Below, in pieces: positions 129 through 59,274 of a stretch of 64,000 nucleotides of DNA (positions within the stretch are counted from its first letter, which is position 1; every line of letters begins with the position of its first letter). The notes under the pieces are model-generated. The model saw only the letters and a program-made list of their open reading frames with translations. It was not told the DNA's origin and ran no database searches. The stretch is from assembly GCA_022402445.1 (NCBI GenBank), contig JAKRSF010000008.1, forward strand, positions 1 through 64,000, given 5' to 3'. A program made the translations under genes and the position numbers. This stretch comes from Cyanobacteriota bacterium. Its GTDB lineage: Bacteria > Cyanobacteriota > Cyanobacteriia > CACIAM-69d.

Positions 129-2048
129 CTACTCCGGCGTACCCACCACCAAAAACGCCGACCAGTAGCGCGGATGGGGATAGGTTTGGCGGGTTTCCAG
201 CATCGCCCGCCGCAGGGCCGTCGCCTTCGGTGCCCCGGCCAGCCAATGGCGATAGAACGCCACCATGAGCGATCGCGTAGCCTCATCCGGCACCTGCCAC
301 AGGGACGCGATCACCGTGGGCACCCCCGCCGCCATGAACGATCGCGCCACCCCCACCACCCCATCGCCGGTGATGCGGCCCCGCCCCGTATCGCAGGCAC
401 TCAGGACCGCCAACTCCGCCGCCAGCGGCACCCGCGCAATTTCCAGCGATCGCAGCAGCCCATCATCCCCCGCCGACGGAGCCAGGGCGATCGTCCCCGG
501 CATCAGGGGCCGCACCACCCGCTCCTGGGCCAGGGCCACCCGGGCCGGGGTGCCATTGATCAGCACATTGTCACCAATGATCACGCCGCCCGGAGTGACC
601 CGCACACCCCCCTCCCGCGCCGTGGGAGCCTCTGCATTGCGCGGCAGGCCGTATTCATTGAGCTCTTCATCGCGATCAAGCAGGCCATGGGTGGCGAAAT
701 GCAGCACCCGCTGGCTGGGCATCGCCGCCAGGACCGCCCGCTTCGTGGCCGCCTCATTCAGGAGCGCGCGCCCCCCCAGCATCGCCGCCACCTCCTGGGC
801 CTCCGCCTCCGCCCCCTCAAGGGGAGCAAGGGGTTCTAGGGCGCGGTTTGGCCCCGTGGGCAGACTGGGCATCGAGACGGGATTGCCCACCACCAGGCCC
901 GGTTGCGTCGCGCGCGAAGGACGCCGCTGGAGGGCCACCGCCGCCTCAAGGGTCTGGAGGGACGGCACCGTGGCGATGGGGGCGCGATCGATCAAAAAAC
1001 TGCCATCCGGAGCCTGCAACGCGGCCCAGGGGGCGAGATAGAGGGCACCCTGGAGGGCAAAGATCACCGGCTGCGTTTCCCCCCTCGGCAGGAGCGGTTC
1101 AATGGGGGCGATCAGGCGATCGTAAAGCTGGCGCAGGGCGGGGTAGGTGGCTTGGGGCAGGGGGAAGGTGACCTCCTGGCGCGCGGCGGTCACCAGGGGA
1201 ATGAGGGAGGGGAGCTGGCCGTCGGGGCCGGGGCGATCGCCCAGATCCAGCCGTCGAAAGGTCACCTGTCCCCGAGGTTGGATCACCCAAATGCCCCAGA
1301 GGGAGTCATCTTCGGCCTCGTCCCCAAGGATTTTGATCTCGCGCCCCACCTGCCCATAGCTCACCAGGGTGGCATTGAGCGATCGCGCCAGGGCCTTGAG
1401 GCGATCGAGGGACGGGGGGGCTTCTGCGAGGGTCGTGCCCGTGGCGTGGCGGGTCAGCAGTTCCACCAGCGATCGCGCCCGTCCCCGCTCCACCTGCACG
1501 AGCGCCTCATCGGTGCGGCCAGCGGCCAGGAGCGATCGCACCAGCAGCCGATAGAGATAGCCCTGCTGCTCCAGGAGCGTCACCCGGTTTAGATCCTCCC
1601 GCTCACCCGATCGCAACTGTTCCCACTGCCGGAGCGCCTGATCGACCGCCGCGATCGCCTCGCCGTAGCGCCCCAGGTGGAACAGCGCCAGCCCCTTTCG
1701 CCCCAGCACCGGAGCCCCACCGCCCCGTTCTAGACCGCGATCGAGCACCGGCAGGGCCTCCCCATAGCGCCCCAACTTCAGCAGGGCCTGCCCCCACTCG
1801 ATCAGGGCCAGATCGTAGCCATCCTCCGTCCCCTGCGCCGTCGCAAACCACTGGCCGTAGGCTTGGGCCGCCCGTTCATAGTCCCCCGCCCCAAACGCCT
1901 GATCCGCCTGCGCCAAACGGGAGTCCTGGGCGATCGCCACCCCAACCCCCAGCCCCGATGGCCCCAGATCCACCCCCGATCCCAAAATCGCGATCGCCAA
2001 CCCGATCCCTAACCCAGCCCACTGCCCCCGCGATCGCCGTCTTGCCAT
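129..2048 (-). CDS. Secreted TPR-CHAT domain protein (caspase-like peptidase family)
   Basis: A 639-residue protein. Residues about 10-40 form a hydrophobic signal peptide or membrane anchor ending near AIA-Q, so the rest is probably outside the cytoplasm. Residues 45-200 contain TPR-like helices (repeated GRYGEA motifs). Residues about 320-637 form a CHAT domain, a caspase-like fold with a His-Cys dyad: the histidine is H454 in HFATHG and the cysteine is C552 in LSACDTG. Both are present, so it may be active. The segment between the dyad residues includes the longer insert I recall from cyanobacterial CHAT proteins. TPR-CHAT proteins often act in programmed cleavage or defence elsewhere; the substrate here is unknown. 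The gene stands alone, divergent from the psbN/psbH region. A second, broken CHAT gene lies at 19.2 kb. Confidence 0.88.
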   Translation of the reverse strand: MARRRSRGQWAGLGIGLAIAILGSGVDLGPSGLGVGVAIAQDSRLAQADQAFGAGDYERAAQAYGQWFATAQGTEDGYDLALIEWGQALLKLGRYGEALPVLDRGLERGGGAPVLGRKGLALFHLGRYGEAIAAVDQALRQWEQLRSGEREDLNRVTLLEQQGYLYRLLVRSLLAAGRTDEALVQVERGRARSLVELLTRHATGTTLAEAPPSLDRLKALARSLNATLVSYGQVGREIKILGDEAEDDSLWGIWVIQPRGQVTFRRLDLGDRPGPDGQLPSLIPLVTAARQEVTFPLPQATYPALRQLYDRLIAPIEPLLPRGETQPVIFALQGALYLAPWAALQAPDGSFLIDRAPIATVPSLQTLEAAVALQRRPSRATQPGLVVGNPVSMPSLPTGPNRALEPLAPLEGAEAEAQEVAAMLGGRALLNEAATKRAVLAAMPSQRVLHFATHGLLDRDEELNEYGLPRNAEAPTAREGGVRVTPGGVIIGDNVLINGTPARVALAQERVVRPLMPGTIALAPSAGDDGLLRSLEIARVPLAAELAVLSACDTGRGRITGDGVVGVARSFMAAGVPTVIASLWQVPDEATRSLMVAFYRHWLAGAPKATALRRAMLETRQTYPHPRYWSAFLVVGTPE

Positions 2049-15581: not shown

Positions 15582-15702
15582 AAACCTCGGCCAAGGGTTC
15601 TTCAGAGTACTCCTTATCGCGCCTAAGAGCCAACGACCTAGGTTGCGTCGGGCTTTTCGGTCGGGTGTCTTGGAACGTTCGCCTGGGGAAAGGCTGAAGT
15701 AC

Positions 15703-16374
15703 ATGGCCGTATCATCCGAACAATCACTCGCTACCGTGTTCCGCCAACTGAGTGGCGGTGGGTTTCCGCCAATTGTGGAGACGTTTGAACGGGGCAAGAC
15801 GATTTTTTTTCCGGGGGATCCGGCAGAGCGAGTTTACTTTCTTCTCAAGGGCGCTGTAAAGCTGTCGCGGGTCTATGAGGCGGGGGAGGAGATTACGGTG
15901 GCGCTCCTGCGGGAGAATACGGTGTTTGGGGTGCTGTCGCTGCTGACGGGGAATCGGTCGGATCGGTTCTACCATGCGGTGGCGTTTACGCCGGTGGAGC
16001 TGCTGTCGGTGCCGATTGACCAGGTGGAGAAGGCGCTCAAGGAGGAGCCGGATCTGGTGATGGTGATGCTCCGGGGGCTGTCGTCACGGATTTTGCAGAC
16101 GGAGATGATGATTGAGACGCTGGCGCACCGGGATATGGGGTCGCGGCTGGTGAGTTTTTTGCTGATTTTGTGTCGGGATTTTGGGGTGCCGAGTCCGGAT
16201 GGGATTACGGTGGATTTGAAGCTGTCGCACCAGGCGATCGCGGAGGCGATTGGGTCTACGCGGGTGACGGTGACGCGGTTGCTGGGGGATTTGCGCGATC
16301 GCGAGATGATTTCGATTAATAAGAAGAAGATTACGGTCCACAATCCGGTGAGTTTGAGCGATCAGTTCACCTAG
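15703..16374 (+). CDS. ntcA: Global nitrogen regulator NtcA
   Basis: A 223-residue CRP-family regulator, the same length as Anabaena NtcA. Residues about 20-130 form the cyclic-nucleotide-like effector domain that senses 2-oxoglutarate ([37 protein letters not shown]). The central dimerisation helix carries [20 protein letters not shown]. The C-terminal helix-turn-helix (about 170-205, [20 protein letters not shown]) reads GTA-N8-TAC boxes. NtcA activates ammonium-repressed nitrogen genes when 2-oxoglutarate rises. ATG 15703 is preferred over an upstream in-frame reading from 15643, whose extra 20 residues are not conserved. A perfect NtcA box lies upstream. Confidence 0.98.
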
Positions 16375-16391
16375 GGTGATCGCGGTTTGGG

Positions 16392-16979
16392 TCAGGTGTT
16401 TGGGTTGCTGGGGGCTGCGAAGGTGATGTCTTCGTAGATGGTTTCGATCGCGTCGGTCCAGTCGATGCTGCTGAATTGGATGCGATCGCCGGGGCCGTAG
16501 GTTTGGAGGGTCCAGCGGTTGCGATCGGTGCGGCGGAAGCATTCGACGCGCATTTTTTTCTGGGCGATGAGGACGTATTCTTGCAGGCTGTCGAGGGTGC
16601 TGTAATCCTCGAATTTGTCGCCGCGATCGCGGGCTTCGGTGCTGTCGGATAGGACTTCGACGATGAGTTTTGGAAAGCGGCGGTAGTGGTCGTTTTCGCG
16701 ATCGCGATCGTCGCAGGTGACGATGAGATCGGGGTAATAGAAACAGTTTTTGGCGTCGATGCGAACTTTGATATCCGAAAAGAGAAGGTCGCAGCCGGTG
16801 CCGCGTAGGTGGTTGCGTAGGGCGGCGTAGAGGTTGCCGACGATTTGGATGTGGGTGGCGCTTGCACCTGCCATGGCGTAGATTTCGCCGTCGCTGTATT
16901 CGTGTTTGACGGTGGCTTGCTGTTCGAGATCAAGGTAGCTCTCGGGGCTGAGAAAGTTGAAGTCGCGTTGGGCAATCAT
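16392..16979 (-). CDS. Uma2 family (DUF820) putative restriction-like endonuclease
   Basis: A 195-residue member of the Uma2/DUF820 group, which is greatly expanded in cyanobacteria and has a PD-(D/E)xK-like fold. The visible signature runs KHEYSDGEIYAMAGAS, then YYPDLIVTCDD with the conserved Asp, and LIVEVLSDSTEARDRGDKFEDY, where the E-V-L and downstream lysine fit the catalytic pattern. Whether these proteins cut DNA in the cell is not settled. It converges on ntcA with 17 bases between stops. A relative lies divergently at 17132. Confidence 0.88.
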   Translation of the reverse strand: MIAQRDFNFLSPESYLDLEQQATVKHEYSDGEIYAMAGASATHIQIVGNLYAALRNHLRGTGCDLLFSDIKVRIDAKNCFYYPDLIVTCDDRDRENDHYRRFPKLIVEVLSDSTEARDRGDKFEDYSTLDSLQEYVLIAQKKMRVECFRRTDRNRWTLQTYGPGDRIQFSSIDWTDAIETIYEDITFAAPSNPNT

Positions 16980-17131
16980 GATCGGGGTGGCGGACGGCGT
17001 TTGTTTTTAGTCTAGCGGCGCGATCGCGGTGCCCTATTGGGCGATAAAGGGTTTGACGGCGATCGGGGGCGCATCGGTGTAGGGGTGTCACCGATAAGAT
17101 GAAGTGAAGGGCAACTATTCTTCACCGAACC

Positions 17132-17692
17132 ATGCTGGCAACCGATCCGCTGTACATCACCCCTGAAGATTACCTGGTGGCTGAGGTGACGAGTCCGATT
17201 CGCCACGAATATCGCGACGGTGAAGTGTTCGCGATGACGGGCGGGACTCAGCGGCACAGTACGGCGATTCTGAATGTGGCGAGTGCGCTGAAGTTGCGGT
17301 TGCGGGGGTCGGGCTGTCGGGTGTTTGCGGAGGGGATGAAGGTGCGGGTGGAGGCGAGCAATTCGTACTATTACCCGGATGTGGTGGTGACCTGTGCGGC
17401 GGGCGATCGCCAACTCGAAAGTCAGTCGATTAACCAGCCTTGCCTAATTGTTGAAGTATTGTCGCCGAGTACAGCGCGGTTTGATCGCACGGAGAAGTTT
17501 GCGGATTATCGGACCATTTCGAGCGTGATGGAGGTGGTTTTGGTTTCGACGGAGCGGGCGATGGTGGAGGTTTTTCGGCGTGGGGAGGGGGATATTTGGG
17601 GGCGGGTTGAGTTGGAGGAGGATGTGTTTTTAGAAAGTGTGGGGGTGACGATCGCGCTAGATGAGATTTATGAGGATACGGATTTGCGCTGA
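17132..17692 (+). CDS. Uma2 family (DUF820) putative endonuclease
   Basis: A 186-residue Uma2/DUF820 protein with the same layout as its divergent neighbour: RHEYRDGEVFAMTGG, YYYPDVVVTC and LIVEVLSPSTARFDRTEKFADY. The two share clear similarity but not near-identity, so this looks like an old duplication or family recruitment rather than a recent copy. Base composition resembles the surrounding genome. It lies just upstream of the AT-rich island at 17.9 kb. A third member is at 56 kb. Confidence 0.88.
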   Translation: MLATDPLYITPEDYLVAEVTSPIRHEYRDGEVFAMTGGTQRHSTAILNVASALKLRLRGSGCRVFAEGMKVRVEASNSYYYPDVVVTCAAGDRQLESQSINQPCLIVEVLSPSTARFDRTEKFADYRTISSVMEVVLVSTERAMVEVFRRGEGDIWGRVELEEDVFLESVGVTIALDEIYEDTDLR

Positions 17693-17821
17693 CGCGAGGA
17701 TGGGCGATCTAGATGGCGATATGGGCTGCGTTGTGCGCGATCGCGGTGCCGTTTTTGATGAATTTGTGCGTTGAGTGCCCTGTGCCATAGTGGGCGAAAT
17801 GTGGTTTGGCAGGGGGCTGAG

Positions 17822-17923
17822 ATGAGGGGTTGGGCCGGGGCGATCGCGGTGGGGCTGTTAGTGCTGCCGATTGGTGAGGTGGGCGCGATTGAGCCATCTA
17901 GAAGTCAATTGAAGATAATGTGA
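17822..17923 (+). pseudogene. Signal-peptide remnant at the left edge of the AT-rich island
   Basis: An ATG at 17822 opens a 33-residue frame that reads as a signal peptide (MRGWAGAIAVGLLVLPIGEVGA) followed by IEPSRSQ. It then runs into AT-rich sequence and stops at 17923. The first ~82 bases have the GC-rich, HIP1-containing composition of the genome, the rest does not. I read it as the 5' stump of a secreted protein gene cut by the island. The CHAT fragment at 19.2 kb may be its other end, because the shared CAA codon at the direct repeat is in the same frame on both sides. Confidence 0.5.
17904..17912. repeat. Left copy of direct repeat flanking the island
   Basis: GTCAATTGA here and GTCAAATTGA at 19244-19253 differ by one inserted A. 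They fall where base composition switches on each side, so they could be a target-site duplication or a recombination core. Confidence 0.4.
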
Positions 17924-17947
17924 ACGTCATCATCGCTATGTCCCGGC

Positions 17948-17953
17948 TATAAT
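17948..17953 (+). promoter_or_regulatory. -10 element of the island ORF
   Basis: A perfect TATAAT lies 43 bases before the ATG at 17996. No good -35 sits at the ideal distance. An AGGGAAG ribosome-binding site follows just before the start. The ORF thus carries its own expression signals inside the inserted DNA. Confidence 0.5.
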
Positions 17954-17995
17954 GGGTCGAGAGATATATCAAAGCTGGAAGCATAGGGAAGACAT

Positions 17996-19210
17996 ATGCA
18001 AATTGCATACATGATCATCAATGACTCTCACAAAGATCTTGTGAATGCCGATGATGTTGATTATTCAGATTACAGCAGAATATTTCAGTGTCCCGAATGT
18101 AAAGCTACACTTACGCTGAAAGGAGGGTTTCGTCGCAATGGCCACTGGGTACGTCCTTCGTTCGTTCACCCGAAGGGTAGCCCTTCTAAATGTTCTAGCA
18201 GAAATACTTTCCCGATGTTTACTGACTCATCCTCGCACACAGTTGAGGATTTAATTGACAGGGGACAGAGTAATAAGCGCCTTGAGAAAGCAATTTTAAG
18301 ATTTTTATACTCTTCTTTTAAAGCCAGTCCCAGAAATAGAAATAATCTCAACTACATTTACTATTTGGGATGGCCTGAGTTTTATGTAAAGACATATTTT
18401 ATGGGCGAGGCTAAGCCAATAGATTCTCGTGCACACAAGTTTCATGTAGATTCATTGGACACAAGATTGGCTATGGATGCAGCCATCAAGGTGGTTTCCT
18501 ACTCTTTGGCCTCAGAATATATTTCCAATTCTCGCAACAGGCTAATTTCTGATACTGAGATCAGGTCAAAAATTTTAAGATACTTTCTTGGCAAAATAAA
18601 TTATGAGAGCGACATGCAAGGGTTTCGCATTTTTGCAAGGGAACTCAAGAGAGAACACAAAAAAGCATCAAAGCATTCAGGGAAGTCCAATCGGGAAATC
18701 GACTATGACGGTGAAGCACTGAAATACCTGGAGTGTAGATATCGAGACAGAGTAGAGTCTGGTGTGCATATCGGAGAGATTTCTGAGAAACATGGACGGC
18801 AGGTTCGCAGAGTTTTTCAATACATAAGAAAAGGATGTTCAGATAAATTTAGAAGGACAATCGTAGCGTTGTCTCTGCAAGAAGGCGAATGCTATTATGT
18901 ATTGTCTAGTCCATATAGATATGTATGGACCGAGAGAGGAATTAAGCCCCTAAATACATTCAGCAAAAGTATGGGCTTTGAAGAAATCAGCGAGATACAT
19001 TGTTCTGTTCTAGAAAGAATCATTGAAGATAAGCACTTCTTAAATAGGGGATATGAAGACTTCTATGACAGCATTCAAAACAATGATAGAACTCGACTGA
19101 CTCGAGATATGGAAAGATTCGAGGCTCTGGCATTTATCGATCTTATACTATCCAACGTTTGGAGGTTTCTTGCTATGCGTGATTGGGCGCAGATGCCTGA
19201 TTACTATTGA
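17996..19210 (+). CDS. Orphan protein with CoiA-like N-terminal zinc ribbon, in an AT-rich island
   Basis: A 404-residue protein that I do not recognise as a whole. Its start resembles the N-terminal region of CoiA-like proteins: DLVNADD, then IFQCPECKATLTLKGG, a short basic stretch and SFVHPKGSPSKC. C32, C35, H58 and C66 could bind one zinc. CoiA-type proteins have a nuclease-like domain after this; here the rest (about 85-404) is mixed alpha/beta, rich in charged and aromatic residues, with no catalytic motif I can assign. Codon use is AT-rich and there is no HIP1 site, unlike every neighbour. It has its own TATAAT and ribosome site. Its TGA overlaps the ATG of the CHAT fragment by one base (TGATG), which suggests coupled translation. 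Confidence 0.8.
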   Translation: MQIAYMIINDSHKDLVNADDVDYSDYSRIFQCPECKATLTLKGGFRRNGHWVRPSFVHPKGSPSKCSSRNTFPMFTDSSSHTVEDLIDRGQSNKRLEKAILRFLYSSFKASPRNRNNLNYIYYLGWPEFYVKTYFMGEAKPIDSRAHKFHVDSLDTRLAMDAAIKVVSYSLASEYISNSRNRLISDTEIRSKILRYFLGKINYESDMQGFRIFARELKREHKKASKHSGKSNREIDYDGEALKYLECRYRDRVESGVHIGEISEKHGRQVRRVFQYIRKGCSDKFRRTIVALSLQEGECYYVLSSPYRYVWTERGIKPLNTFSKSMGFEEISEIHCSVLERIIEDKHFLNRGYEDFYDSIQNNDRTRLTRDMERFEALAFIDLILSNVWRFLAMRDWAQMPDYY

Positions 19211-19635
19211 TGGACAATGTTCTTGTTTTTATTCATGGCACTTGTCAAATTGAGCTTGCCCTCAGTCCTGACGGCCAAAACGACGGCAAACTCGACCTCT
19301 CGGAAGTGTTCGACAGCAACCTCAGCGCCGAACTGGCCGTCCTCAGCGCCTGCGACACCAACCGGGGTCAAGTTATTGGCGAAGGGGTCATCGGCCTCGG
19401 GCGCGCCTTCCCCAAGGCAGGCACCCCAACGGTCGTGGCGAGCCTCTGGAAGGTGCCGGATGAGCAAACGGCCATGCTCATGGAAGCGTTCTACGAGGAA
19501 CTGTTGGCCGGACGCGATCGCGCCGACGCCCTACGACTGGCCCAACTGAAAGTGCGGGAACAGTATCCCAATCCACACTATTGGGCTGCATTTGTATTGA
19601 TCGGTGAAGGCGATCGCCCCCTCGATCCATCCTGA
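19210..19635 (+). CDS. CHAT domain fragment (C-terminal half)
   Basis: A 141-residue frame opening at an ATG that overlaps the stop of the island ORF. From about residue 15 it is the second half of a CHAT peptidase domain: ALSPDGQNDGKLDLSEVF, LSACDTNRG with the catalytic-type cysteine, then GEGVIGLGRAF, VASLWKVPDEQT and HYWAAFVLIGEG. The first half of the fold and any TPR or signal region are missing. The N-terminus reads VLVFIHGTC, which by chance or design offers a histidine before the cysteine, but the spacing is shorter than normal. The sequence is GC-rich from about 19250. I call it a truncated gene that may still be translated. Confidence 0.65.
   Translation: MDNVLVFIHGTCQIELALSPDGQNDGKLDLSEVFDSNLSAELAVLSACDTNRGQVIGEGVIGLGRAFPKAGTPTVVASLWKVPDEQTAMLMEAFYEELLAGRDRADALRLAQLKVREQYPNPHYWAAFVLIGEGDRPLDPS
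19244..19253. repeat. Right copy of direct repeat flanking the island
   Basis: GTCAAATTGA, partner of GTCAATTGA at 17904-17912. GC-rich, genome-like sequence resumes immediately to its right. Confidence 0.4.
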
Positions 19636-19815
19636 TTGCCCCCGATCCACCGGCCCCATCCGCATCTCCGCCAGGGTGCTGTTAATGCGATCGGGCTCCA
19701 CCCCTAGCTTGCTTTCGTCTGCGATCCCGTTCTACGCTAGCGTTTCATCTTGGCCACGGTGCGGCGTTGCCCGCTGCCAAGGCAACCTATTGGCGGCCCT
19801 TTGCCTCCCATCACC

Positions 19816-21264
19816 TTGGGCTATCTTCTGGTTCTGTTGGCAACATTGGTCCTGGGGGGGGCGATCGCGACGATCGGCGATCGCTTGGGCACGCGCATTG
19901 GCAAGGCCCGCCTGAGCCTGTTCAACCTGCGGCCCCGCAAAACCGCCACCCTGGTGACGATCGTGACCGGCAGCGTCATTTCCGCCTCGACGCTGGGGTT
20001 GATCTTCCTGGCGGGGGCCTTAGAACTCGAGCAAATCCAAGGGCGATTGGGCAAGGCCCGCAGTGACCTAGAGCGCGCCCAGCAGGCCCAGCGGACCGCC
20101 CGACGGGAATTGAATAATATTGATCGCTCCCTCCAGCGATCGCTCTCGCGCCAGCAGCAAACCCAGCAGCGCCTGGATCGATCGCAAAAAGAACTCGCCC
20201 GCATTCAAACCCAGTTTCGGCAGGCCCGCGATCGCGTCGCCCAGGTCTCCCGGCGCGCTCGGGCACTCCAGGGGGAAATCCAAAACCTCCAGAGCGAACG
20301 GCAACAGCTCCGGGGCCAGCTAGAGCAGCTCGATCGCGATCGCCAAGCCCTCAGCAACCAAACCGCCACCCTCTCGCGCCAGAACCAGGAACGCGCCGCA
20401 CAAATCGCCGATCGCGAAAACCGCCTACGGGCCGTCGAAGGGCGACTGAGCGACGCCAACCGCCGCTTCGCCAATGCCCAAGACCAACTCGCCTTCCTCA
20501 ACACCGCCGTCGCCAACCTAGAACAGGAATTTTCAGAACTGCGGGGCGGGAATGTGGCCCTGCGGCGGGGGCAAGTGCTGGCGGCGGGGCTGGTGCGGGT
20601 CAATGATCCGAGCGCGGCGGAGGCGGCCCTCGATCAACTGCTGCGGGAAGCGAACCGCGTCGCCTGGGAACGGCTGCGACCGGGCACGGAAGAGCGCCAA
20701 GCCATCACCCTCACCCGGCAGGCGGTGCAGGCGGCGGTGCAACAATTTCAGGATGGGCGAGAATATTTCGTGCGGGTGCTCTCGGTGGCGAACTATCTGC
20801 TGGGGGAAGATCCGGTGCTGGTGACCCTGGAAGTGAACCCAAATGTGATGGTGTTTGAGCAGGGAAGTGTGTTGTCCAGCAGCCAGGTGCAGCCCGGACT
20901 CAGCCGCGCGGCCCTGCGCGATCGCCTGGAATTGCTGTTGGCGCAGGTGCAGTTCCGGGGGCAGCAGGCGGGGGTGGTGACTTCGGCGATCCAGTTTCGG
21001 CGGGCGGAGGAGTTGGTGGATTTGCTCCTGTGGCTGGAAACCCAGCGATCGCCGGTGCTGTTGCGGGCGGTGGCGGCGGAGGCGATCGCGACCTCGGGGC
21101 CGATCCTGGTGGCGTTTGTGGTGGAGCGCGACGGGCGTCTAGTCTATCCCCCCGCCCTGGTGCCGCCCAATAATCTTGCCCCGCCCCCAGGGATCGATCC
21201 GCGACCGGGTTCTGACCCCCCAGGACCGCCGAGCGGCGATCGCCGCCCCCGGATTTCGCCGTAG
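19816..21264 (+). CDS. DUF3084 domain protein with long coiled coil
   Basis: A cyanobacteria-specific family member of about 482 residues from TTG 19816, where the conserved GYLLVLLATLVLGG begins; an open frame extends to TTG 19750. It has two N-terminal membrane helices (residues about 1-20 and 50-75) separated by the conserved RIGKARLSLFNLRPRKTATLVT loop. A coiled coil of about 170 residues rich in R, Q, L and E follows, then a conserved globular C-terminal region (about 265-450). The function is unknown. The architecture suggests an envelope-anchored scaffold. No ribosome site distinguishes the two starts. Confidence 0.85.
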   Translation: MGYLLVLLATLVLGGAIATIGDRLGTRIGKARLSLFNLRPRKTATLVTIVTGSVISASTLGLIFLAGALELEQIQGRLGKARSDLERAQQAQRTARRELNNIDRSLQRSLSRQQQTQQRLDRSQKELARIQTQFRQARDRVAQVSRRARALQGEIQNLQSERQQLRGQLEQLDRDRQALSNQTATLSRQNQERAAQIADRENRLRAVEGRLSDANRRFANAQDQLAFLNTAVANLEQEFSELRGGNVALRRGQVLAAGLVRVNDPSAAEAALDQLLREANRVAWERLRPGTEERQAITLTRQAVQAAVQQFQDGREYFVRVLSVANYLLGEDPVLVTLEVNPNVMVFEQGSVLSSSQVQPGLSRAALRDRLELLLAQVQFRGQQAGVVTSAIQFRRAEELVDLLLWLETQRSPVLLRAVAAEAIATSGPILVAFVVERDGRLVYPPALVPPNNLAPPPGIDPRPGSDPPGPPSGDRRPRISP

Positions 21265-56647: not shown

Positions 56648-58903
56648 TTAGAGTGGGGATGCTATAACATCAGCCGCCGTTAGTTGATTGGGGGCAATAT
56701 TTGCAAGTTTAGCGAGCAATTCTGAACCATTACTGAGGTTTAGAACGCCATCGCTAACCGTCCGAGAAAGCGCGTTAAAACTGAGACCCGTTGGCAGGAC
56801 TAGGCGATCGCGCCCCGCTTCAAAATCCAAGACCGTAACCGTGCCATCGCGATCGCCCCCCAGAGCAAAATAATCTGCCCCGGCCCCACCGCACAGGGTA
56901 TCGTTCCCCCAGTCCCCAAAGAGCCAATCGTCCCCCTCGCCGCCGAGGAGCAGATCGTCATCTTGGCCGCCGTGGAGCGTGTCATTGCCATCGCCGCCGA
57001 CCAGCACATCGTCCCCCTGATGGCCAAAGAGCCAGTCGTTGCCGTTGCCCCCCAGGAGCGTATCGTGTCCCGTGAGGTCGGGGAGACTCGGATCATTTGT
57101 GCCGCCATAAAGGGTGTCATTGCCCAGATCGCCGCTGAGCCAATCGTCCCCGCGATCGCCCCACAGTTCATCATCCCCCTGGCCGCCGTGGGCAAAATCC
57201 TCCCCTTGGCCGCTATGAATTAGGTCATCGCCGCCGCCGCCGCCGAGGCGATCGCCCCCTTCGCCGCCATAGAGTTCGTCCCGGTCCAAATCGCCAGAAG
57301 CCTGCGCCGTCGGTGCCCCCAGGATCAGATCGTCCCCGAGGCCGCCGAAAATTTGATCGTTGCCGCCACCACCACTGAGTACATCCTCGCCGTCGGTGCC
57401 CTTGAAGGTGTCGTCACCATCACCGCCCTTGAGGGTGAGGCGGGGCGATCGCGGTGGTGTCACAAAATCGAGATCCGGTGCGGGAGGGATCAGGGCGTCA
57501 CAGTCGTGGGGTGGCGCGATCGCGGCCTCCACCGTCCCCAGCAGGGGAAAATTGAACAGGTCAATGGCCGGGTCATTCGTCCGTAGCTGAAAAACCCCCG
57601 AAACCGTGCCCGGTGCCGTCGCCGTAAACCGCAGGGGCAGCCGTGCCGTTTCCCCCGGCGCAAGCCCTGGGGGCAGAGCCGCCCCTAGATTGAATCCGTC
57701 CGGCAATGTGAGATCAAAGAACCGTAGGGGGCCATTGCCGCCATTGCGAATCGTCAGAATTTGTTCGGCGGTCTCCCCCGCGATCGCGCTGAAGGTCAAA
57801 AAATCTGGGGTGCCATCCGCGATCGCCCCACCCGCCGCATCCGTCACCGCGATCGCCGGACGCAGTTCTACCACAGATTGAGCAGTTGATTGGGGGCTCG
57901 ATATGGCCACCGCCGCCGCCGAATCGTTGTCTGCAATGCTGACCGTCACCGACGGCACCGCCAAACCGCCATAGGCCACGTCGCCGCTCGCCACAGTGTG
58001 GGTGATTGTCCCCAGATGGTTTCCCTCAACCGCGACATCATCCACCGCCGTCACCGTCACCGTTTGCGGCACATTCCAATTGCTATTGGTGAACGTCAAG
58101 GTGGTTTGATTGACCGTAACCTGCGTCCCCAAATTGAGGGTAATGACCACATTATTAGTCGGCGGCGTGCGCAGGACCACCGTGTAGTTATCCGTTGCGC
58201 CCCCCTCCGTCACCTGGGTAGTTCCCCCCGACTCCGTGATGATCACCCCCGGAGCCGCCATGCGGAAATTATCAATCGCTAGGCCGTGATCATTGACGTC
58301 GTCATTTAGCTCAATCCAACGAATCCATAGGGTCTCGTCATTGGCCCAGTTTAGGCCCGTTAGCGTTCCACTCCGATTTGGCCTATTTCCATCTGAATTT
58401 CCGTTCACCGCCCCGGCTGTTGCTGTAGCTACTGGCGAAGTCCAATTAAAGTTTCCGTTGGGTCGTATCCAACTAGAAACAGCAGAAAATGAAGTGCCTA
58501 AGCCATATTCCAAAACCATGTCTTGGGGTGTAGTGTTGCCGCCGTTTCGCCATTGTTCTCCGTCAAAGGTAAGTGTTAGACGATCTAGAGTTGAGCCTGT
58601 GACATTCTTTGCCGCTACGGCGATATAGCCCGCGATCGTTTGATCAGGAGCAGTTCCAAAGTAAGATCCTCCTGATCCCAATCCGCCTAAGGCTCGATCC
58701 GTCGATCCAGCTACGCCAAAACTATAAAATGATCCTGTATTTGAACTACCTGTTCCGGCAAGATAGCTTGTCAATGGATTCGAGTCTTTATTGAAAAGTG
58801 ACCAGCCTGCTAGAGTATTGTTATTGACCCACGGTAAGCCTGTTCCAGAGATCGCCAGGGTATTAAAATCTTCAGAGTAGATGCCACTAAAATTAATTGC
58901 CAT
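56648..58903 (-). CDS. RTX-type calcium-binding secreted protein
   Basis: A 751-residue extracellular protein. Residues about 1-215 form a domain seen in cyanobacterial surface proteins (MAINFSGIYSEDFNTLA; TIAGYIAVAAKNVTGSTLDRLTLTFDGEQWR). A Calx-beta-like region follows (about 220-330), then a choice-of-anchor/ASPM-like domain (about 365-465, LTIRNGGNGPLRFFDLTLP). Last comes an array of about ten RTX nonapeptides (GG-x-G-x-D patterns such as GGDGDDTF, GGNGNDWLFG) binding calcium in a beta-roll, and a C-terminal secretion region. There is no N-terminal signal, so type I secretion is expected, but no transporter is adjacent. The first ~450 coding bases are clearly AT-richer than the rest. Confidence 0.85.
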   Translation of the reverse strand: MAINFSGIYSEDFNTLAISGTGLPWVNNNTLAGWSLFNKDSNPLTSYLAGTGSSNTGSFYSFGVAGSTDRALGGLGSGGSYFGTAPDQTIAGYIAVAAKNVTGSTLDRLTLTFDGEQWRNGGNTTPQDMVLEYGLGTSFSAVSSWIRPNGNFNWTSPVATATAGAVNGNSDGNRPNRSGTLTGLNWANDETLWIRWIELNDDVNDHGLAIDNFRMAAPGVIITESGGTTQVTEGGATDNYTVVLRTPPTNNVVITLNLGTQVTVNQTTLTFTNSNWNVPQTVTVTAVDDVAVEGNHLGTITHTVASGDVAYGGLAVPSVTVSIADNDSAAAVAISSPQSTAQSVVELRPAIAVTDAAGGAIADGTPDFLTFSAIAGETAEQILTIRNGGNGPLRFFDLTLPDGFNLGAALPPGLAPGETARLPLRFTATAPGTVSGVFQLRTNDPAIDLFNFPLLGTVEAAIAPPHDCDALIPPAPDLDFVTPPRSPRLTLKGGDGDDTFKGTDGEDVLSGGGGNDQIFGGLGDDLILGAPTAQASGDLDRDELYGGEGGDRLGGGGGDDLIHSGQGEDFAHGGQGDDELWGDRGDDWLSGDLGNDTLYGGTNDPSLPDLTGHDTLLGGNGNDWLFGHQGDDVLVGGDGNDTLHGGQDDDLLLGGEGDDWLFGDWGNDTLCGGAGADYFALGGDRDGTVTVLDFEAGRDRLVLPTGLSFNALSRTVSDGVLNLSNGSELLAKLANIAPNQLTAADVIASPL

Positions 58904-59274
58904 GGGTTAATTCAACTTGAAGAGCTTTTTGAGGTTGCTGTTGTTGAATGGGAGAAAATAGCTGCGGGCGGCCTGATCCTACCATGACTCCCTTTAGGTG
59001 ATTTCCAGTTGTGCCTAACTGACAAGGAAATGCAAGATTGTTCTGTATTGTTAGTAACGCTTACCAGTGCGCCCCGATTGGTTAACTGATGGTTAATGCC
59101 TACGCGATCGCGGCCTTCCCTACCCCATCCTTTGATCCCGTCGCCCCCGCCCCCACCGGCCAGTTCAGGGCGATCGCGGCAAATGGTAGGATCAATCACC
59201 GCACTTGCTGCGCGATCGCGCCCTAGCCCCGCCGATCTCCAGAGGCAGCCCCATCCCTTGCAGAGTCGAACCCC
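58904..59274. other. Intergenic region with divergent promoters
   Basis: This 371-base gap separates the RTX gene from accC. It holds no supported gene. An AT-rich patch at 59020-59100 contains GGTTAACTGATGGTTAATG, a direct repeat of GGTTAA, which may lie within the accC promoter. Confidence 0.35.

Follow-up and report, generated by a model that had tools for sequence, protein, structure and literature searches.

Probable recent replacement of the middle of a cyanobacterial PPC-TPR-CHAT gene by an AT-rich fragment carrying a CoiA_N-like zinc-ribbon gene

The window, that is, the whole 64,000-nt stretch of cyanobacterial DNA analysed here, contains an AT-rich segment of foreign composition at positions 17904..19251 (+ strand), lying between two remnants of a resident gene. 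We consider it probable that a non-mobile, AT-rich cyanobacterial fragment of ~1.34 kb was recently transferred into this genome and replaced the middle of a CHAT gene, and that its product is a rare accessory zinc-ribbon protein of mobile elements. Read in this way, the locus would be a clear case of non-mobile foreign DNA taking the place of part of a resident cyanobacterial gene with both host ends still readable.

Base composition sets the segment apart from its surroundings, with the 64,000-nt window as the only reference and a GC-rich cyanobacterial genome as the host. The G+C content over 17913-19243 is 0.40 compared with 0.62 for the window, and the lowest-G+C 1.2-kb stretch of the window starts at 17948 (0.396), the lowest value outside this region being 0.504; the AT-rich island of the original prediction is thus borne out. 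The third-position G+C (GC3) is 0.388 in the only complete gene of the segment, against 0.67-0.83 in 10 neighbouring genes. In a two-border fit of G+C content, the left edge fell at 17896 and the right edge at 19251 (17870-17948 and 19229-19283, respectively, when positions within 3 log units are admitted), and homology to the CHAT gene restarts at 19252-19258, which fixes the borders to within ~10-30 bases. The segment had also been called HIP1-free. No HIP1 site is found at 17840-19514, but this absence is a weak sign by itself, since the window has three other gaps of similar size (1853, 1731, and 1668 bases), all in DNA of normal G+C content. In another part of the window, the next lowest G+C stretch (0.50) overlaps a gene at 56648-58903 (-) that is also overlapped by a HIP1 gap of 1255 bases (57849-59104); by our own reading, the 751-aa product of this gene has Calx-beta-like and glycine/aspartate-rich calcium-binding-type repeats. 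With respect to the claim that the segment has its own TATAAT and ribosome site, a TATAAT can be read directly at 17948-17953 (+) as a candidate -10 element and AGGGA precedes the ATG of the gene, but the promoter scan gave the TATAAT no score for want of a spaced -35.

The two flanks of the segment are the start and the end of a single disrupted gene for a secreted PPC-TPR-CHAT (caspase-like) protein, because both match the same intact orthologues, with 780 residues separating the last and first matching residues in each of them. These orthologues, L050 of G001 (976 aa) and L052 of G003 (978 aa), belong to 2 genomes of the same family as the host, and in both proteins a signal peptide is followed by a PPC-like domain, TPR repeats, and CHAT. 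The right remnant (~19252..19635, +) corresponds to CHAT positions 163-289 of 289 (Pfam PF12770, E 7.6e-41) and is 68-70% identical to the C-termini of the intact genes. The left remnant (17822..17903, +) has its start codon at 17822 and encodes a signal-peptide-like sequence, MRGWAGAIAVGLLVLPIGEVGAIEP, which aligns with residues 45-70 of both intact genes; its frame stops within the AT-rich DNA. The alignment scores against the intact signal peptides were 61 (G001) and 55 (G003), compared with at most 37 for shuffled sequences and 15-36 for the other CHAT proteins of this and related genomes, in a match of ~26 residues of a kind that is low in information, a point that we count against our explanation. 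Elsewhere in the host genome, the left flank gave only short matches of the HIP1 type. The CHAT catalytic pair is the histidine of the ATHG motif and the cysteine of LSAC. The remnant keeps the LSAC cysteine and has lost the histidine region, since in the intact orthologue the ATHG motif comes before the point that corresponds to the junction, so that a complete CHAT domain with both residues is not encoded. By these alignments, ~780 codons (~2.3 kb) of the host CHAT gene have gone, and ~1.34 kb of foreign DNA stands in their place. CHAT matches in the host genome number 11 in all, and a second, intact CHAT gene (639 aa) is located at 129-2048 (-), close to the window's left edge.

The right junction points to the nature of the incoming DNA. 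The stop codon of the 404-aa gene overlaps the ATG of the next open reading frame (ORF) in the sequence TGATG (19208-19212), and this second ORF, low in G+C at its beginning (33% at 19211-19250), continues without a frame change into the CHAT remnant. We interpret its first codons (MDNVLVFIHGT...; 19210..19245, +) as the start of a second donor gene, so the donor fragment apparently ends a dozen codons into that gene. In the sequence of events that we propose, a random foreign AT-rich fragment would have recombined into the resident PPC-TPR-CHAT gene, replacing ~780 codons and killing it; the fragment would have carried a whole gene, its upstream signals included, as well as the opening dozen codons of the neighbouring donor gene, which would now share one reading frame with the tail of the dead CHAT gene. 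The loss of CHAT codons and the gain of foreign DNA would then be one event, for which illegitimate recombination, for instance after natural transformation, may have been the route, although the CHAT gene may have decayed before the segment arrived. Recombination of a random donor fragment fits the absence of a transposase or integrase among the ORFs of the segment, of terminal inverted repeats near its borders, and of a tRNA gene, a tRNA integration site being absent since the Rfam and tRNA scans gave no match. Five genomes of the same family were the closest available for comparison, and the 404-aa gene is absent from all 5. The proposal that one whole gene was acquired horizontally in the recent past, with no transposase or integrase, is therefore supported by the composition, by this absence, and by the host gene broken around the segment.

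The original prediction had further viewed the segment as an insertion bounded by a direct repeat, that is, a cassette or non-autonomous mobile unit inserted precisely and duplicating GTCAATTGA at its ends. We regard this as very improbable. Near-identical short strings are indeed present at both composition borders, GTCAATTGA at 17904-17912 and GTCAAATTGA at 19244-19253, and by our own arithmetic collapsing 17904-19243 joins the frames of the 2 remnants. However, the strings differ by an indel, and a local match as good as theirs was obtained in 63% of shuffles of the 2 border zones, which is the level of chance; the missing ~780 host codons, the right end that seems to cut a second donor gene, and the single copy of the 404-aa gene in the host genome also argue against it. 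Thus, a repeat above chance, terminal repeats, and a host gene left uninterrupted after removal of the segment were all lacking. An artefact of assembly or contamination has next to no likelihood in our judgement; a sharp change of composition in a draft of 13 contigs could suggest one, but the two junctions interrupt a single host gene whose ends keep their proper order and orientation, and a random misjoin would not yield 2 ordered joins in one gene.

Judged from gene order, the AT-rich segment is part of a larger block, 16375-19800 (~3.4 kb), which is as a whole extra DNA at this locus. An ntcA-like regulator gene (15643..16374, +; 85-88% identical in same-family genomes) forms the left edge of the ancestral neighbourhood, and the right edge is a gene (19810..21264, +; matched by tblastn in all 19 other genomes examined) of a type whose family name we take to be DUF3084. 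The first is directly followed by the second in all 5 same-family genomes, and in 12 of the 19 other genomes examined in all. Here, ~3.4 kb separate them, comprising 2 Uma2 genes, the CHAT remnants, and the AT-rich segment. The Uma2-family genes (16392..16979, -, and 17132..17692, +; Pfam PF05685, E 1e-37 and 4e-34, respectively) lie side by side in divergent orientation and code for putative restriction-endonuclease-like proteins; the block that holds them is missing between ntcA and the DUF3084 gene in all 5 same-family genomes. The Uma2 and CHAT parts are probably older residents, since they have genome-like composition and HIP1 sites, and the AT-rich part would be a later arrival. The intact CHAT orthologues of G001 and G003 are found at other places, outside the ntcA-DUF3084 interval, which counts against our explanation and implies that the CHAT gene was moved or duplicated at some time.

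As predicted, the segment holds a single ORF of 404 codons (17996..19210, +), which looks intact. It encodes an orphan CoiA_N-like zinc-ribbon protein, and the ORF list, a family alignment, and full-length relatives in Pseudanabaena agree with these boundaries. The Pseudanabaena proteins are its best relatives (26-37% identical in the best segments), and the family is patchy, with members in 10 of 386 cyanobacterial genomes. In an alignment of 7 members, the invariant residues include C32, C35, H58, C66, R69, Q91, and W397. The zinc site proposed at C32/C35/H58/C66 gains support from the conservation of these presumed ligands in 15 of 15 aligned members, and they form a CxxC...H...C pattern within the N-terminal 70 residues, as in a zinc ribbon of the CoiA_N type. 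The description of the protein as CoiA-like holds for this ribbon, which is related to CoiA_N. The window protein scored 15.5 bits against Pfam CoiA_N, below the cut-off of 26.3, and has no nuclease-domain match. The cut-off was passed by distant relatives (L084, 35.0 bits; L081, 26.7 bits). PHROGs and NCBIfam gave nothing above noise, the best hit of a PDB profile search (E 0.024) was unconvincing, and structure models had low confidence (mean pLDDT 36 for the whole protein and 50 for the N-terminal 112 residues). The product may be described, on sequence grounds, as a CoiA_N-type zinc ribbon with CCHC ligands at the N-terminus, followed by a helical body with no recognisable nuclease site; ribbon proteins of this kind are known, but this one had not been described, and its family is uncharacterised. 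Residues 255-285 (VHIGEISEKHGRQVRRVFQYIRKG) resemble a helix-turn-helix by eye, a feature not clearly common to the relatives and with no Pfam support. Two related genomes carry, at the same place, shortened relatives limited to the ribbon part (L080:7476-7832, 118 aa; L083:7559-7837, 92 aa), which are possibly decaying copies.

The locations of the relatives suggest that the family consists of accessory genes that go with mobile regions and with regions of defence type. Members are found on 3 plasmids and, at L087, on a phage-like element that encodes an antirepressor of the BRO type and has an ORF that we read as integrase-like (no Pfam match), and in 2 genomes BRO or phage-integrase-type genes lie nearby. 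The Pseudanabaena neighbourhoods contain 2 DUF29 genes, genes of toxin type (DUF5615 and Gp49-like), and a restriction-modification pair made up of a TdeIII enzyme and a cytosine methylase. At 3 Pseudanabaena loci (L059:13430-13954, L085:5454-5993, and L086:5361-6026), a conserved gene (174-221 aa as listed) sits directly upstream of the family member, with a spacing of 8 bases for the copies of 174-179 aa; it is a candidate operon partner and is missing in the window. Viral contigs queried with the 7-member family, the window pair, and 3 subfamilies returned one locus only, L087, and phage records contained no relatives. A scan of genome contigs gave no match with the window protein alone and 2 loci with the Pseudanabaena pair.

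The role of the protein was weighed against the evidence from the whole family. A genuine CoiA-type competence nuclease in diverged form would account for the CoiA_N match, weak in the window protein and clear in distant members; we consider it highly unlikely, since the PF06054 nuclease domain was unmatched in every member scanned, the PD...(D/E)x(K/Q) motif is missing in 14 of 15 members (its single occurrence is not common to near relatives), and the body has no conserved acidic columns. For CoiA, a PD-EXQ site has been described in residues 56-209 (PMC1189080). The nuclease fold that had been predicted for residues 85-404 was not upheld, as this region shows neither a conserved acidic or PD-(D/E)XK motif nor a family match; with models of such low confidence, a fold of this kind may nevertheless be present. 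On present evidence, then, the 404-aa protein would appear not to be a nuclease. The suggestion of a defence or nucleic-acid-processing gene is possible, by association with the neighbourhoods of the relatives only.

A role in anti-phage defence exerted by this gene alone, with a ribbon resembling the one in DruB of the Druantia system, would agree with the restriction-modification and toxin-antitoxin-type genes near the relatives and with matches of 3 family members to the N-terminus of the PADLOC DruB model (8e-5, 3.5e-4, and 2e-3). This we think possible but unlikely, as we do a defence role in general, for which the argument is association: the window protein had no PADLOC match, the DruB match is limited to the ribbon, and several relatives are on phage-like elements and plasmids, which fits other accessory roles too. 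DruB itself was found in 0 of 291 cyanobacterial genomes, a scan in which the control was likewise silent. More speculative still is the idea that the protein belongs to a so far undescribed family of mobile, single-gene anti-phage proteins in cyanobacteria, in which the DruB/CoiA-type ribbon would be a nucleic-acid sensor and the variable helical body an effector or partner-binding part. Somewhat more probable, and a real possibility although not our preferred reading, is that the gene does nothing for this host and is carried as a passenger, intact only because its transfer is recent; this would be consistent with its strong unameliorated composition and the missing Pseudanabaena partner gene, but the ORF is full length and has all invariant family residues, the C-terminal Trp included. 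We favour an accessory protein that most likely binds nucleic acid through its ribbon, and the gene is presumably expressed and useful in the host. The locus also directs attention to a small uncharacterised zinc-ribbon family that seems to travel on cyanobacterial plasmids and phage-like elements, and the ribbon, common to CoiA and, weakly, to the defence protein DruB, would be a simple target for defence or DNA-binding tests.

Compared with known systems, the flanks of the segment are the 2 ends of a gene for a secreted cyanobacterial PPC-TPR-CHAT protein, whereas the copy here is without ~780 residues, the CHAT histidine region among them. With CoiA (COG4469; CoiA_N PF25164 plus nuclease domain PF06054), the common feature is the N-terminal zinc-ribbon-like CxxC...H...C region, but the present family has neither a PF06054 match nor a PD-EXQ site and is patchy on mobile elements. 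The likeness to DruB of Druantia type I (PADLOC PDLC00005) covers the N-terminal ~50-95 residues of 3 relatives, in contrast to a model of 552 positions whose remainder is unmatched, and no match, full-length or partial, was obtained with the window protein. The closest counterparts are uncharacterised cyanobacterial proteins, for example those encoded on plasmids pNe_4, pNPM3, and NIES-73 plasmid1 and in Pseudanabaena biceps PCC 7429. Although their identity to the window protein is confined to the range given above for the best segments, their bodies are of unequal length (257-428 aa), and the Pseudanabaena copies, unlike the window copy, follow the conserved small gene, they have the same ribbon, the same invariant residues, and the same C-terminal Trp.
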